Assembly (NCBI GenBank): GCA_963921795.1
Contig: OY997643.1
Span: 9,207,033 to 9,271,032 of the forward strand
Direction: 5' to 3'
Length of the DNA stretch: 64,000 nt
Origin: Nannobrachium achirus
Lineage: Eukaryota; Chordata; Actinopteri; Myctophiformes; Myctophidae
The translations under genes were made by a program, and so were the position numbers. Within the stretch, counting starts at the first letter, position 1; the number at the start of each line of letters is the position of its first letter. The notes beneath the pieces were generated by a model that saw only the letters and a program-made list of their open reading frames with translations, was not told where the DNA came from and made no database searches. Shown here one piece after another: positions 28,308 to 53,110 of this stretch.

Positions 28308-28803
28308 CAGGGGTCTTCAACAGGGGGTCCGGGACCCCTCCAAATCTTTGTGTGATATACACTTCTTTTTCATGTTTTTTTAATATTAACTATTTGAACC
28401 CTAGTGTCCAAATTCTGAGAATTTTAGCCGACAAATAGCATACAAGCTCACAACGCGTCGTGCTGTGAGGCGTTGTGAGCTTGTAGATCAGCTGTTTTCG
28501 GCAAAGAGCTTTGTTGTAGAGGGGAAAAAGAGCACACTGAGTACAGAGTTAAAGGTCAAGTTTATTAAGTATTGACGGTTCAAGTGCATGGTTAAATATC
28601 TGAAAACATACATCATACTGCAGTCTTAGCACTCTGAGATTTCTTGTGACAATATAGCACAAATTGACATGAATCCAAAATACACAATGATTGTGCTTCC
28701 AAACAATGAAACTATATGGAAACTATGAAAAGGTTGTGGGGGTCCCTGCTTCATCTCTTTCTCAACTAAGGGGTCCTTGGCCTGAAAACTTTGAAGACCC
28801 CTG
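28308..28803. mobile_element. hAT MITE with 8-bp target duplication TTATAGAT
   Basis: Termini CAGGGGTCTTCAA and TTGAAGACCCCTG are perfect inverted repeats. Flanked by TTATAGAT at 28300-28307 and 28804-28811, the 8-bp duplication expected of hAT. It carries the recurrent hairpin module at 28433-28499. No coding capacity. Confidence 0.92.
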
Positions 28804-31202: not shown

Positions 31203-31695
31203 CAGGGGCGTCACAAGGGGTAGGAAAGTGGGACTGAGTTACTAGGGCCCAAGGTGGAGGGGCCCTAGTAACTTTAGCTATTGAAAAATAGCAGATATAC
31301 AAGCTCACAGCGCGGCACCGAGTGCCGCGCTGCGAGCTTGTAGATCTGCTATTTTTGAAAAGTCGTGAAAATGTGCGCAAATCTTTGAATATATTTATTT
31401 TTTTAGTGAACATTTGTAACAAAAATGTTGCTTCTGGGGGGTCCCTGGAACTAAATATTTTGAGATGGGGGGGTCCTTCACATGAAAAAGTTAGAGCATC
31501 ACTGACATGGAAACATAGGTTTCTTGGCACACATTTTCACGATTTTTCAAAAATAGCAGATCTACAAGCTCGCAGCGCGGCACTCGGTGCCGCGCTGTGA
31601 GCTTGTATATCTGCTGTTTTTCAATAGTTAACATTCATGGGGGGCCCGCAGTGAATCCTTGTACCCAGGGCCCAGAATTTGGTGTGACGCCCCTG
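31203..31695. mobile_element. hAT MITE with 8-bp target duplication GGTGGGGG
   Basis: Termini CAGGGGCGTCACA and TGTGACGCCCCTG are inverted. Perfect 8-bp duplication GGTGGGGG at 31195-31202 and 31696-31703. It contains two full hairpin modules (31281-31358 and 31549-31622) flanking a segment found inverted at ~34240-34400 and ~44430-44580. Confidence 0.92.
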
Positions 31696-32795: not shown

Positions 32796-33634
32796 CAGTG
32801 TTGTTTTTGACAGCAAATAATGTAGTTTTAGTCATAGTCTTTTGAATAAAATGTCTTTTAGTTTTAGTCATAGTCTTTTGAATAAAATGTCTTTTAGTTT
32901 TAGTCATAATTTAGTCACCTGAAAAGTCTGATTTTAGTCGACTAAATATCATAAGATTTTAGGCGACTAAAATGTATTTTGGCAGGCCTTGATGCCATTG
33001 TAATGGCTGCTTTTACACTTGGTTGCGTGCTGAAAATAGCCGAGCTTGTGGATCTGCTATTTTCAGCACGCAACACCTCCTGAGTGCAACCAAACATAAA
33101 ATGAGTCCTTCCCTAACGTTTTAGTCAGCAGCCATATTGGAGAGAAGTTGGGTCTCTTACCACTTCCTTCACAGTGTTACCAATGATACTAATGAAGGCT
33201 CTGTTCCGTTTCACGTAGCACAGTGGTTCTCAAACCTTTTATTTCAAGGACTCCCATAACTCTGAGAGCATACAAATGGGTCCATTTGGTTCCATTTGTA
33301 TGCTCTCAGAGTTACACACCTTTTTAAGGGGTAATTTGGAACCCCCAAGTTACCCTGGACCACGTTTTGCGACCCACCGGTGTAGCAGTGTTTCCAGTGG
33401 GCCAAGATGCTCAATATCAGCACCCTGACTCTGTTTGAACAGAATGGAACAGAGCCGTCATTAGTATCATTAGTAACACCTGTGAAGGAAGTGAGAAGAG
33501 ACCCAACTTCTGTACATATAGCCAAATAGTCTTCACAGCGTACTTTTTATTTCGTTTTTATTTAGTTTTCGTCAGTGAAAAGAACGCAGTCGACAAACAT
33601 TTTTCGTCAAAGTTTTAGTCGAAAATCAACACTG
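32796..33634. mobile_element. hAT element with 8-bp target duplication CCATATAC
   Basis: Termini CAGTGTTGTTTTTGA and TCGAAAATCAACACTG. Perfect duplication CCATATAC at 32788-32795 and 33635-33642. Left interior has tandem TTTTAGTCATAGTCTTTTGA segments. A shortened palindrome of the hairpin family (33021-33074) and a nested element (33134-33512) lie inside. Confidence 0.9.
33134..33512. mobile_element. nested inverted-repeat element, copy 1
   Basis: Outer arms of ~80 bp (GGAGAGAAGTTGGGTCTCTT ... AAGAGACCCAACTTCT) enclose a hAT-like core that starts CAGTGGTTCTCAAACC. Core inner hairpin CCATTTGTATGCTCTCAGAG. A second copy lies inverted at 48829-49194. Confidence 0.8.
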
Positions 33635-44699: not shown

Positions 44700-47600
44700 T
44701 CAAACATTGACAAGTTCCTCGGTGGGGTGGTGGCTGCACCGCACGGAGGAGCTGTGACTGTTGCTCAACTGGAACCTCTTCCGCATGGCGTTCAGGTTCA
44801 CCCTCCTCCGGAAGGTCTCCGTGGTGAAGTAGTACACCAGGGGGTCCAGCATGGCGTTGAGGCACGCCACCATCAGGGCGTAGCGGTAGGCGCCCAGCAG
44901 GGGGCAGGGCGTGTCCCGGCGGTAGAGGTAGAGCAGGGCCAGCACGGTGTGGTACGGGAGGAAGCTCAGCAGGAAGATGAAGAGGCTGCCGCCGACCAGC
45001 CTGCGGATCTTCTGGCTGTCGACCTATATAGTCCCGGGGGAAAAAAAGGGTAATTTTTTGGCTGAATGTGGATTCTTCGGTTAACGTTTTTTTTCCTCAA
45101 CTGATTCTTGCAGCTTATAGGGTCACCTCTTAAAGGGGTACTGTCACTGTAAAGGGGTTGAGGGGCAGATTACACTGTGACATGAGCTTCTCTGAAAACG
45201 GTCTGAAACAGTCTGAAGCTCATGTCACAGTGTAATCTGCTCCTCGCCCCCCAACAACAGCTGACCAGTACAGTAAGTAGTCATACAGTCAGGCTATACA
45301 GACAATTAATTTGATTGGCTTATAATTGCGCATCCCCACGATGACATCATAAAAATATTAACTTGTTTTTTTAAGATGATTCTTAAAGTGACAGTAACCC
45401 TTTAGGTGACAGGCCCCCTTTAAGGATTCAAGAGGGTGCCCAGTGTTATCCCTTTAGTTATTAATATGCATTCATCTGAAAGGAGTAGAAAGCAGATCTG
45501 ATGCATTTGATTTGATTTCTGTCCATGTACAATTTCACAATATCTCAGTGTTGTTCTGGGCATGAAGGGGTTAATATTTAAAAATGCATAAATATTAAAA
45601 TCTAATGCACCACACATATTCACTTTCATGGATAAACACTGTAGAAAGCAAATTGTATGCATTTAGATCAAGTATTTTTGCATGAAATGCCATAAAAGTC
45701 AATTTTGGGTGGGTTTTTAGAGGTTTGGGCATGAAGGGGTTAAAATAAAAATGCCCCAAGGGATAACACTGGGCACCCTCTTGAATCCTTAAAGGGCCAT
45801 TTCACCTCTGGGACAACCCAATCTTATTTTATTGTGTTTGGGACACGATCAACACAATCCTGAGTTATTTTTTGTGTTCAATCTGTGTTTTTAGATATTT
45901 TAGTATTTCAGCATGTACTAGTGATGCGTTTTGCATCATATGATGCGTTTTGCATCACTAGTACATGCTGAAATACCAAAAAATATCTCAAAACATAGAT
46001 TGAACACAACAAATAACTCAGGATTGTGTTGATCGTGTCCCAAACAACAATAAAATAAGATCGGGTTGTCCCAGAGGTGAAATGGCCCTTTAAGAGGTGA
46101 CCCTAAGCTGCAAGAATCAGTTGAGAAAAGAAAACGTTAACCCACGAAACCACGTTCACCCCCACAGCTCCCGGACTAACCAGGGGCGTCTGGGCCACGG
46201 GGCTGCGCTGCACGGCCCTCACCAGGCCCCAGGAGCAGGCCAGCATGGCGCCCAGCGGGATGCCGAAGCCGATGGACAGCGTGGAGAAGAGGATGCCCGG
46301 CTGAGTGTAGGTGTAGACGGGCAGGCTGCCGAAGCAGCGTGGCTCCACGTCCTCATGCTGTTTGAAGCAGAATCGGAGTCGTTATACGAAACTACCCAAA
46401 ATGTCCAGTCTATACAATATTATATGAGTTTTTTTAAATAAAAGGACCCAGATTGTAACAATATTGTAACAATATCGATATTTCTACGTCCCATTAGTCC
46501 GACTAAGGGTTAGGGTAAGGTTTAGGCATAGTTTTACTGAGTTTAGGGTAAGGGTTAGGGTTAGGTTTAGGCATGGTAGCATTCCAAATGTTTGGAGTGA
46601 CCAAAAAAGTGAGTGCGAGCTATTTTCTTTGTTCCTAGCATTACTGCGTTGGCAGTTTTAGCTCGGCACCGAAGAACGGAGGATGTGCTTTATTTTTCTT
46701 TGAGCATTCACCAGGTTAGCATTCACCAGCGTCGGCAGGTTCGCATTTCATCCGTTTAGCATTCACCAGCGTCAGACAAATGTGACGTCAAACTATCGAA
46801 CGTCATAATAACGCTACGCACCCTCCCAAAAGCTTTCTTGAGGTGTTTATCCTAGTTGACCTTGTACCAGTGAACTGTACTGTCATGAAACTGTGCCTTT
46901 TCCAATGCAAACTTCTAATAAAACAATAGAAAGAAGTAAATGAAAAAATGAAATCATCTTTTATATTCTTTAACTCTCCCAACGCTTTGAACGTTCACGT
47001 TCGCCCGATTTCGCAAGACCTCTCCGCCAATACGGCGCTCGTTCGGTTCGTTCGTCTGATGACTGTAAGCTGATGAGGGGTCGCGCGGCCGTCTACTGTA
47101 AACACATTTTCCGCGGTGATGGTGTAAAAAATCCATTATGCGTTAGATCAACGGAGAACAATTCACTTCCTTGTTGATTTCCTCTGGCTGTAAGGCTCTG
47201 TGGCCAGTGACTGGTCTTCTTCTTCTTCAACACATAACAGGCAAATTCACATTCATTCTCGCATGACGCCGCCCTCTGCTGCCTGGCAGACCAAAGTGCA
47301 CTATTGCACAACCCAAAAAAATAAAAATAAATAAATAAATGTCTGTCTGTCTATCTACTATAACGTCGCAAAGGTAAGCCGCTTTTTGATGGCACCAGAC
47401 CCAATAAATAAATAAATAATCTGGCAGTAGGAGAGTTAATTACAAAAACTAAAGTTGTCCATTAATGCAGAAGGTCCCATTTCACACCCATTTCACAACT
47501 TTTCGAATGTATATAAATGTATGAAATATATTTGGAAATTGCAGATCTACAAGCTCACAATGCGTCGCATCACGATTCCCAGGCTACAGCACACACACAC

Positions 47601-48737
47601 ATACCTTCTGCAAGAGGCGGCTCGGCAGGCTGGAGCCGACGGTGAAGACCCAGATGCCGAGGCACACCCACGCCGACTTCTTGCGGGCCTCGCGCACGCG
47701 CGACGACATGGGGAAGGAGACGGCCATGCAGCGGTCGAAGCAGTTGCAGGTGAGCAGGAAGACGCTGCTGTACATGTTGACGAGCAGCGCCAGGCCGGCC
47801 CACTCGCACAGCCACTGGGGCAGCGCCACGCCCAGGTGGTGCAGGATCCTCAGTGTAGGGGAGGAGGCGATATGGAAAAATACAATATCATAATATTTTT
47901 CCCAAGCTGTATCACTGTCACCATACATGATTTTATCGCGACTCTTTTTCACATTGGTTTTTATGATTACTTGACAAAAACTAGACTCTCTGGGTTCCTT
48001 TTGGGAGGTCTAAATTGAACTTTACAAGTATGTAAAGTTCTTGTAAAGGGGGGATACAACGCTGAAGAAGACTGTGGAAGAAGACCGAAGGGTCGAAACG
48101 CGTCCGTTGACTCTGTCCATTGAGGTAAATAAAATCATGTAAAAAGGAGATTCCTTGACTGCTGGCGACTACTTCTTTCTCATATGCTATTTTGAACTGT
48201 GCACCTAAAAGCCTTCAGCTAACTTGGAGTGTTGCGGGCTGTCTGCTTTATTGCAGATACCTTTCTCTACTAGAGTTCAGGGGAGACCTTGACATTTTAA
48301 AGTTTGAGAACTACTGATTTTGACCAAAATGCAGGTTTAAATTGAATTCTGCAACGAATCTCTGTATTAACAATTAAACAGGATTTCTTACAAGGCTCCC
48401 TCAATTGTATCACGATACATACGATACCTCTGAAAAGGCATATCGTGGAGACATTGTATCGTCTCAACTCTCAACGATAATTATCACCTTATCGCCCACC
48501 CCTACCTCAGCGGCAGCACCAGCACCAGCAGCAGGTCGGCCACGGCCAGGTTGGTCATGTAGACGGTGGTGTGCGACGACGACGAGCGCCGGGACTTCAT
48601 GCCGCCGCCGAAGACGGGGCAGCAGAAGACGAAGAGGGCGGCGAGGTTGGAGACGAGGCCCACCACGAAGGTGGTGCCGTAGACCGCCACGAAGATAGCG
48701 CCGATCTCCCCCGTGGAGCTGTCGTCACAGCCGGTTG

Positions 48738-48771
<34 letters not shown>

Positions 48772-48777
48772 GGACAT
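44700..48777 (-). CDS. class A GPCR, P2Y/LPA-receptor-like, four coding exons
   Basis: Rhodopsin-like seven-helix receptor at the cell surface. Exons in transcript order: 48777-48506, 47848-47605, 46357-46181, 45023-44700 (1017 nt, 338 aa, stop TGA at 44702-44700), all GT-AG. Start context GGCCACCATGT is a strong Kozak match. An N-terminal run of 11 Asn is microsatellite-coded. TM1 GLVSNLAALFVF; TM2 MTNLAVADLLLVLVLPLRI; TM3 cysteine in CEWAG and DRC in place of DRY; TM4 ending GIWVFTVGSSLP; loop cysteine PRCFGS; TM5 GFGIPLGAML; TM6 FLLSFLPYHT; TM7 LNAMLDPLVYYFTTETFRRR. FLPYH with DPxxYY and ETFRRR points to the P2Y/LPA/proton-sensor branch; the ligand cannot be told. Such receptors are often single-exon, so three coding introns are notable; the first is a transposon (see 47856-48504). 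The frame is intact. Confidence 0.88.
45081..46140. mobile_element. chain of four nested/abutting TTAA MITEs in a GPCR intron
   Basis: Outer MITE: TTAA at 45081 and 46137, arms CGTTTT...CTCAACTGATTCTTGCAGCT and complement (45085-45129, 46094-46136). Inside it are three more: ~45134-45403 (AGGGGTACTGTCACT and complement, with an inner hairpin at 45163-45245), 45424-45788 (GGATTCAAGAGGGTGCCCAG and complement) and 45793-46089. The last two share one TTAA at 45789-45792. Confidence 0.85.
45793..46089. repeat. 297-bp near-perfect palindromic MITE
   Basis: Arms of ~148 bp meet at GATGCGTTTTGCATC-ATAT-GATGCGTTTTGCATC with almost no spacer. Ends AGGGCCATTTCACCTCTGGG and complement. TTAA-flanked. Confidence 0.9.
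46358..47604 (-). other. GPCR second intron (1247 bp)
   Basis: Contains TTAGGG-like words at 46505-46575, a half hairpin module at ~47535-47575 and small (AAAT)n runs at 47325 and 47400. Neither end shows transposon termini with a target duplication. Confidence 0.7.
47856..48504 (-). mobile_element. hAT-type element that forms the first GPCR intron
   Basis: Plus-strand ends TAGGGGAGGAGGCGATA and TATCGCCCACCCCTA are inverted terminal repeats of the TAGGGGTGGGCGATA type. Flanking 8-mers are CCTCAGTG (47848-47855) and CCTCAGCG (48505-48512), a target duplication with one mismatch. On the gene strand the donor is CGCTGAG|GTAGGG and the acceptor CCTCCTCCCCTACACTGAG|G. The intron is therefore the element plus one duplication copy (657 bp), and splicing restores CTG-AGG-ATC across the site. 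Interior ~48050-48180 looks like a further nested repeat. Confidence 0.88.
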
Positions 48778-52529: not shown

Positions 52530-53110
52530 CAGGGACATGCTGGGCCCCTGATTCAGCCCGGGAAAAAGAGTTGGAGAGGCCCTCATTGCGTGCTATAGAG
52601 AGAGATCTCTCTCTATAGCACTACTGCTGCTACTCAAAGATTTGCCATTTCAGATCATGACAAGTGACAAGCCAGTGGGCCAATTACATGAGTTATATTT
52701 CGTTGTTGTCGGGTGGAAACCTTGTATGTCCAAAACGGTTTGTTTTGTATTTATCATTTTAAAAATGATTTAAACTAGTGAAAACAGCCAATCTACAAGC
52801 ACACAACGCCTCGCACCGCGAGGCGTTGTGTGCTTGTAGATCTGCTGTTTTCACTACTTTTGTGCGACGGCCTTGAATGATGAAGCAGGGCTTTGCTTTG
52901 CGATAAAATGTACACATTTGAAACTTGGAGATACGAGGTTTCTGCCCGACAGTGACAATTTACTTTGTTGGCCGCCCAGCCCCCAAAATGGAACGAAGCC
53001 CGACATTTTATTTATTTATTTTTTTTCACTAATGGCCGGCCTGGACCGGCCGGGAATGAACCAGCCATTCGGGAGTTGTCCCGCTTTTCCCAATGGCCAG
53101 CACGTCCCTG
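52530..53110. mobile_element. hAT MITE with 8-bp target duplication CTGTATGC
   Basis: Ends CAGGGACATGCTGGGC and GGCCAGCACGTCCCTG. Perfect CTGTATGC at 52522-52529 and 53111-53118. Contains the cleanest hairpin module (52776-52856) and AGAGAGATCTCTCT near the left. A truncated relative is at 34695-35111, and the interior is shared with 39676-40041. Confidence 0.93.

Follow-up and report, generated by a model that had tools for sequence, protein, structure and literature searches.

How does a receptor gene come to hold an intron that consists of a transposon and one copy of its target-site duplication? The locus that raises this question lies in a 64,000-nucleotide stretch of Nannobrachium achirus DNA, analysed here as a whole and referred to as the window, where a P2Y/LPAR6-like receptor is encoded by four exons (Table 1). 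The gene is intact, with a spliced coding sequence of 1,017 nt that is free of internal stops, and the 338-aa protein matches both the Pfam family 7tm_1 (E 2.6e-36) and the solved structures of LPAR6 (E 1.5e-34), with LPAR6, GPR174, CysLT1 and GPR35 near the top of the structural matches.

The first intron of the receptor

On the gene strand, exon 1 ends in ...CTGCCGCTGAG at 48506 and exon 2 begins with GATCC at 47848, while the intron between them runs from GTAGGGGTGGGCGATA... at 48505 to ...TATCGCCTCCTCCCCTACACTGAG at 47849 and carries stop codons in all three frames. The first-pass annotation of this DNA had held that the intron is exactly the element plus one target duplication, which the coordinates and letters confirm, and that its exact removal restores CTG-AGG-ATC in frame in TM2; in agreement with the latter, the joined coding sequence has no internal stop and the LPAR6 alignment is gap-free across the junction, at PLR|IL. 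When the sites of the region were scored with a crude matrix, the donor at 48505 ranked third of 245 and the acceptor at 47849 ranked 103rd of 235, with AGs inside the element at 48072, 48430 and 48062 scoring higher than this acceptor. Intron 1 is very probably a hAT-like insertion that is spliced out exactly.

Table 1 Features of the receptor gene and of the element in its first intron (window positions)
Feature	Position	Strand	Basis
Receptor exon 1, coding (ATG at 48777)	48506..48777	-	spliced CDS; 7tm_1 match
Receptor exon 2, coding	47605..47848	-	spliced CDS
Receptor exon 3, coding	46181..46357	-	spliced CDS
Receptor exon 4, coding, with stop codon	44700..45023	-	spliced CDS
Receptor intron 1 (G + element + CACTGAG), 657 nt	47849..48505	-	sequence; paralog on C14 uninterrupted
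Non-autonomous hAT-like element, 649 bp	47856..48504	-	family copies, end counts, alignments
Exon-side target-site duplication, gene strand CGCTGAGG	48505..48512	-	letters; 8-bp duplications in family copies
Intron-side target-site duplication, gene strand CACTGAGG, containing the predicted 3' splice site AG	47848..47855	-	letters
5' terminal inverted repeat TAGGGGTGGGCGATA; with the preceding G, predicted donor GTAGGG	48490..48504	-	exact-copy counts
3' terminal inverted repeat TATCGCCTCCTCCCCTA, predicted acceptor pyrimidine tract; family consensus TATCGCCCACCCCTA	47856..47872	-	family alignments
Element stretch unmatched by ordinary family copies, probable nested insertion	~48036..48271	-	copy alignments

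In the mechanism that we propose, a non-autonomous hAT-like transposon would have inserted into the receptor coding exon, duplicating its target CGCTGAGG. The 5' splice site would then be made up of the final G of the upstream duplication copy and the terminal repeat (G+TAGGGG), while a pyrimidine-rich tract would come from the opposite terminal repeat and the 3' splice site would be the AG in the downstream duplication copy; the spliceosome would remove the element and one duplication, bringing back the original frame, and the insertion would be tolerated as a new phase-2 intron. Exact removal would require donor and acceptor to occupy matching positions within the two duplication copies, and for an element that starts with TAGGGG and ends with CCCCTA three classes of duplication can be derived from the sequence as workable: those ending in AGG (mode A, with donor G+TAGGGG and the acceptor AG in the second copy), those beginning with GGT after an A (mode B, with the donor in the first copy and CCCCTA+G as acceptor), and those with AGGT in their interior. 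The splicing itself we infer from the frames, the empty sites and the strand bias described below; tolerance by selection and timing are inferred as well.

The element family and the paralogous receptor

The two duplications (CCTCAGTG at 47848-47855 and CCTCAGCG at 48505-48512) agree at seven of eight positions, the chance of an 8-mer match with at most one mismatch at one given place being 0.0004, and their single difference looks, from the letters, like a CpG-to-CpA change in the intronic copy. Across the 1.66-Gb genome to which the window belongs (as C6:9207033-9271032) the 15-base end TAGGGGTGGGCGATA has 4,114 exact occurrences (2,074 + 2,040), against 0 for the reversed control: the terminal repeat is no chance motif. 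In a DNA search that gave 2,609 first-look candidates, the 40 that were scored are mostly 91-95% alike over the first 233 bases of the element and mostly 77-89% alike over positions 470-649. In 13 copies the ends were placed purely by alignment, and every one of these has an 8-bp flanking repeat with at most one mismatch; a script requiring no more than one mismatch located both ends at 29 of 36 loci, with identical repeats at 18, and yielded a family consensus of ~476 bp, and another that allowed two mismatches recognised the second end at 40 of 50 places with an AGG-ended duplication and long flanks. The 8-bp target-site duplications and the short terminal inverted repeats (TIRs) TAGGGGTGGGCGATA, whose likeness to hAT ends we presume, are those of a hAT MITE, and by these sequence characters the family is large, non-autonomous and hAT-like. 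Scans for the TIR in 31 viral-contig stretches and three bacterial or archaeal genome contigs gave no match with a convincing paired end and duplication, and blastn against phage and plasmid sequences returned nothing.

The window copy departs from its family in places. Element positions 234-469 (approximately 48036-48271 of the window) are not matched by the usual family copies, and positions 189-428 match C12 at 95% (L044, C12:57365079-57368316, where positions 324-428 form an inverted second piece), and the family present at L044 is probably the one from which the stretch inserted in the window copy came. At the 3' end, GCCCACCCCTA of the family became GCCTCCTCCCCTA, with a longer pyrimidine run. 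The first-pass proposal that the terminal repeat itself supplies the splice parts needs one revision: the donor GTAGGG and the AG of the duplication stand, but the tract CCTCCTCCCCTA is absent from the other copies read, whose consensus is CCCACCCCTA. When the window was scanned for structures with hAT-like ends, the 649-bp element was missed, probably because of an indel in its 3' repeat. The same scan found four other hAT-like elements in the window (28308-28803, 31203-31695, 32796-33634 and 52530-53110), each with perfect 8-bp duplications and matching ends (CAGGG.../CAGTG...).

A protein search of the genome places the closest receptor paralog on C14, with 221 of 324 aligned residues identical (68%) and a 327-aa open reading frame (ORF) in four exons that has no internal stops. 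This paralog is uninterrupted at the window insertion target CGCTGAGG, where it reads CTGCCGCTGAGGATC / GTGCTGGCGCTGCCGCTGAGGATC; the empty site predicted from the window sequence is thus found, with CTGCCGCTGAGGATC unbroken. The private third intron of the C14 gene is in turn another copy of the family (529 bp, target-site duplication TGCTCAGG), located at an AGG site, WGLLR^AIRR, with the letters ...CTGCTCAG|GTAGGGGTGGACGATA......CATATCGCCCACTCCTATATGCTCAG|GGCC and two extra bases, TA, at its 3' end, and the window gene is unbroken at that site. Each paralog thus carries an intron of the same family and shows the empty site of its counterpart, the intron being absent at the homologous position in both comparisons; intron 2 is the only one that the two genes share. 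Between the paralogs dN is 0.21, dS 0.23 and dN/dS 0.92, so constraint on the receptors is weak by that measure; both frames are nonetheless unbroken.

Family copies in other genes

Flanks were read at 87 of the 220 AGG-type places in the genome, the window copy lying outside the 87; for 40 loci (L128-L167) the upstream side only was read, and such one-side-read places may be native exon ends rather than exon interiors. With both flanks read and one duplication copy removed, the frame is continuous across the junction at seven loci (L074, L093, L070, L089, L105, L098 and L088), whose introns contain 5-29 stops in every frame. The TTC39-like L074 has an Iml2-TPR_39 match (7.9e-31, residues 8-128) that spans the junction at residue 44, and the TRIM-like L093 has a RING before its junction at 76 and a B-box after it. 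At L070, which comes from a sample not chosen for AGG, a connexin match (1.2e-41) spans the junction, and the gene is split at a GGTGACGT duplication in mode B (ATGGAG|GTGACG...CCCCTAG|GTGACG). L089 is a piggyBac-like transposase, that is, a mobile-element gene, and the continuous ORFs of L105, L098 and L088 have no Pfam matches. In gene models, the same family accordingly occupies several unrelated intron positions (the window and C14 receptors and the TTC39-like, TRIM-like, connexin and piggyBac-like genes), with splice sites drawn from the element ends, the duplication or both and with the coding frame kept. L114 (C4:56615782, keratin-like) is the failed case and was set aside: its frames before and after the junction differ, which could reflect a pseudogene, other splice sites or an assembly error. 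A convincing second end was not found at L100, L109 and L113.

Some copies appear to sit at the edges of existing exons. At L076 (C1:12853156, EVI5-like by eye, with no Pfam match) and L121 (C5:11123182, ABCA4) they appear to be at native donors, for the sequence downstream of the join, read by eye, does not continue the same protein; if these are native exon ends, the terminal repeat would replace the native donor. By the same kind of reading, the copy at L115 seems to be at a native acceptor. Separately, three AGG copies on C6 (L137-L139, at 5824956, 5853615 and 5863052) have their duplication and a short upstream open stretch in common, and by their sequence resemble one segmentally duplicated insertion.

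The coding strand of the interrupted sequence was then compared with the orientation of the element at 84 AGG places, using ORFs of at least 50 aa in the ~270 nt before the element on both strands and a Pfam threshold of E 0.01; three tandem-repeat loci of the 87 (L099, L101 and L119) and low-complexity ORFs on both strands were left out. On the sense strand, the one that gives the donor, 70 ORFs matched 26 Pfam families in approximately nine domain classes (LRR, FAM65, olfactomedin, RING, butyrophilin Ig, transposase, NCOA, Wnt at 0.0033 and EGF at 0.0036), whereas 58 antisense ORFs matched one family, the marginal DUF3915 at 0.0043. The one-sided sign test gives 0.011, or 0.002 without DUF3915, and this bias does not follow from target preference alone, which predicts both strands alike. 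The Pfam list gives families (25 of the 26) and members only for L154; the other locus names were read from translations and are backed for L093, L154 and L128. Among PDB searches, for which sense ORFs only were queried, matches were obtained to LRRC4C (1.3e-58), myocilin (2.9e-28), otopetrin (4.3e-11), LSm6 (4.9e-10) and, for L121, ABCA4 (3.4e-22), and queries with L164 and L153 (Wnt-like and RIPOR-like) gave none. The coding regions of LRRC4C and of connexins are normally single exons.

Protein families were used for this comparison since open length separated AGG-sense from other sites poorly (at least 100 aa in 21 of 61 AGG-sense cases versus 6 of 30 and 17 of 109 at other sites), and open length alone was rejected as a coding test. 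The number of AGG-ended copies was likewise rejected as proof of selection: 220 of the 4,114 end in AGG versus 182 in CGG, GGG or TGG, with a binomial tail of 0.0002 for 220 of 402 that rests on one small sample, and approximately 2.1% (86) would be expected from position frequencies, a rough figure from a small sample, yet the count is confounded with target preference, A being favoured at the relevant duplication position (0.46 of 94 ends, again a small sample). The duplications sampled comprise 47 entries, with some copies represented from both strands, and were chosen for having no more than one mismatch. Much of the AGG count may come down to target preference. Mode B showed no genome-wide excess (103 ACC ends among 4,114) and was discarded as such. 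The suggestion of the first-pass annotation that any AGG insertion of the family could be born spliceable is supported, at the level of gene models, by the family copy of the C14 paralog and by the coding-exon insertions in other genes, where the coding strand is the donor-giving one with one marginal antisense match.

Alternative readings and known intron-making elements

If the element were not cleanly spliced, the insertion would be a disrupting one and the receptor copy dead or dying. The low score of the acceptor, the better-scoring internal AGs and the dN/dS against the paralog all point that way, but there is no stop or frameshift in 338 codons of the window gene or 327 of the paralog, and when unconstrained change of 10.5% is simulated, 7% of the runs for each lineage stay free of stops. 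The insertion is also not brand new, as indicated by the CpG-like change in its intronic duplication and by the further insertion and several changes in the copy, and its geometry recurs in other coding genes; we therefore regard disruption as very unlikely. Even less credible, to the point of being almost negligible, is a pre-existing intron that a transposon merely filled or replaced: the gene does have two further introns, and fish GPCR genes gain and keep introns (PMC3151243, in its available portion), but here the element and one duplication are the whole intron, with no intron sequence of other origin outside them, and the paralog is uninterrupted at the duplication.

The wider pattern could instead be made up of target preference and of insertions at native exon ends, leaving two real but isolated receptor introns and no introner-like family. 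Preference may indeed account for a large part of the AGG-ended copies, the copies at L076, L121 (native donors) and L115 (native acceptor) seem to be at exon ends, and coding sequence was not recognised at most of the 87 AGG places. Preference alone, however, predicts no strand bias, and not only the two receptors but also TTC39-like, TRIM-like, connexin and piggyBac-like genes contain exon-interior copies with exact frame; an insertion at a native donor would, moreover, depend on the terminal repeat to act as donor, as the exon would otherwise read on into the element. We consider this reading unlikely. The full explanation, in which the element inserted at CGCTGAGG, is spliced exactly as predicted and belongs to a family that behaves as an introner in this genome, is in our judgement highly probable from the sequence. 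The broader proposal is likely, with somewhat more reserve: a hAT-like introner family in a vertebrate, acting through an AG|GT register where the duplication ends in AGG or begins with GGT after an A, and responsible for tens to perhaps more than 100 introns (an extrapolation rather than a count), including reciprocal, independent ones in two receptor paralogs.

Vertebrates are held to gain introns only rarely, by a mechanism that is mostly unknown. In plants, maize Ds insertions in waxy, Adh1 and shrunken2 offer a close parallel, as exonic non-autonomous hAT elements that are spliced from pre-mRNA with splice sites at the element end and in the duplication; they differ in being single mutant alleles, in a plant, whose splicing is often imprecise. 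A high-copy family with intact ends, readable duplications and empty-site paralogs would let intron birth be studied in a vertebrate, including which targets are spliced immediately, at what rate the splice sites improve and what share of the insertions is tolerated.

Introners, as described in the available portion of a survey of eukaryotes (Gozashti et al. 2022, PMC9860276), comprise 548 families with several duplication and TIR modes, are present in 175 of 3,325 genomes, including only two animal groups, and give no evidence for such a gain pattern in vertebrates. Like the present family they are non-autonomous, have TIRs, duplications or both in many families and insert in exons; one splice site may come from the element and the other from the duplication, and mRNA length is unchanged in most families. 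Unlike those reported in that portion, the present family is hAT-like, makes 8-bp duplications and resides in a 1.66-Gb vertebrate genome. If our reading is right, DNA-transposon introners extend to vertebrates, where that survey of 3,325 genomes, as far as its available text goes, saw no such pattern.

The nearest vertebrate case is that of the transposon-born introns 3 and 5 of slc26a2 in notothenioids, with the element NTE-1 (PMC12357937, 2025, from the part of the article available). It too concerns a fish coding gene and a repeated element with inverted ends, and in its intron 3 the gt-ag lies within direct and inverted repeats and a later second insertion lengthened the intron; it differs in having 4-nt direct repeats and tgt...aca ends, which mark another element type, and in that the new introns lie in one gene, as opposed to one family in several genes here. 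The first-pass annotation had called a vertebrate coding case striking: with a single case already in print this is less so, and for a family-wide pattern more so. As far as the accessible sections of these articles go, what would be new here is the family-wide introner behaviour, a single transposon-born intron in a vertebrate gene being known (PMC12357937). No hAT or other introner family in a vertebrate is named in the titles and abstract openings among the matches listed from the open-access literature, which is mostly without subscription papers and without preprints, and a 2025 paper that examined, across 3,493 vertebrates, how human genes gained introns states in its available text that its methods were not designed for transposon-made introns (PMC12124190).

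Novel introns have also been described in fish melanocortin, P2Y and CHRM3 receptors (PMC3151243). In the portion of that article available, proto-splice MAG^R sites are mostly kept in the melanocortin cases, and some of the introns contain repeats; as here, these are intron gains in fish GPCRs, but no source element with TIRs and a target-site duplication is named. Our two receptor paralogs differ by four private introns at a dS of approximately 0.23. Private intron 1 of the C14 gene (L127, C14:9815981-9819253; 1,115 nt) starts in a AATTAATT-rich run and sits 20 nt upstream of the window splice point. Intron 3 of the window gene (45024-46180) consists almost entirely of a nested inverted-repeat structure that reaches near both splice sites (GT-TAGTCCGGG...CCCGGGACTA-TATAG), and the C14 paralog is uninterrupted at this site, reading GACCTGGTCGAC; by its sequence, this is a possible second transposon-born intron, from another family.
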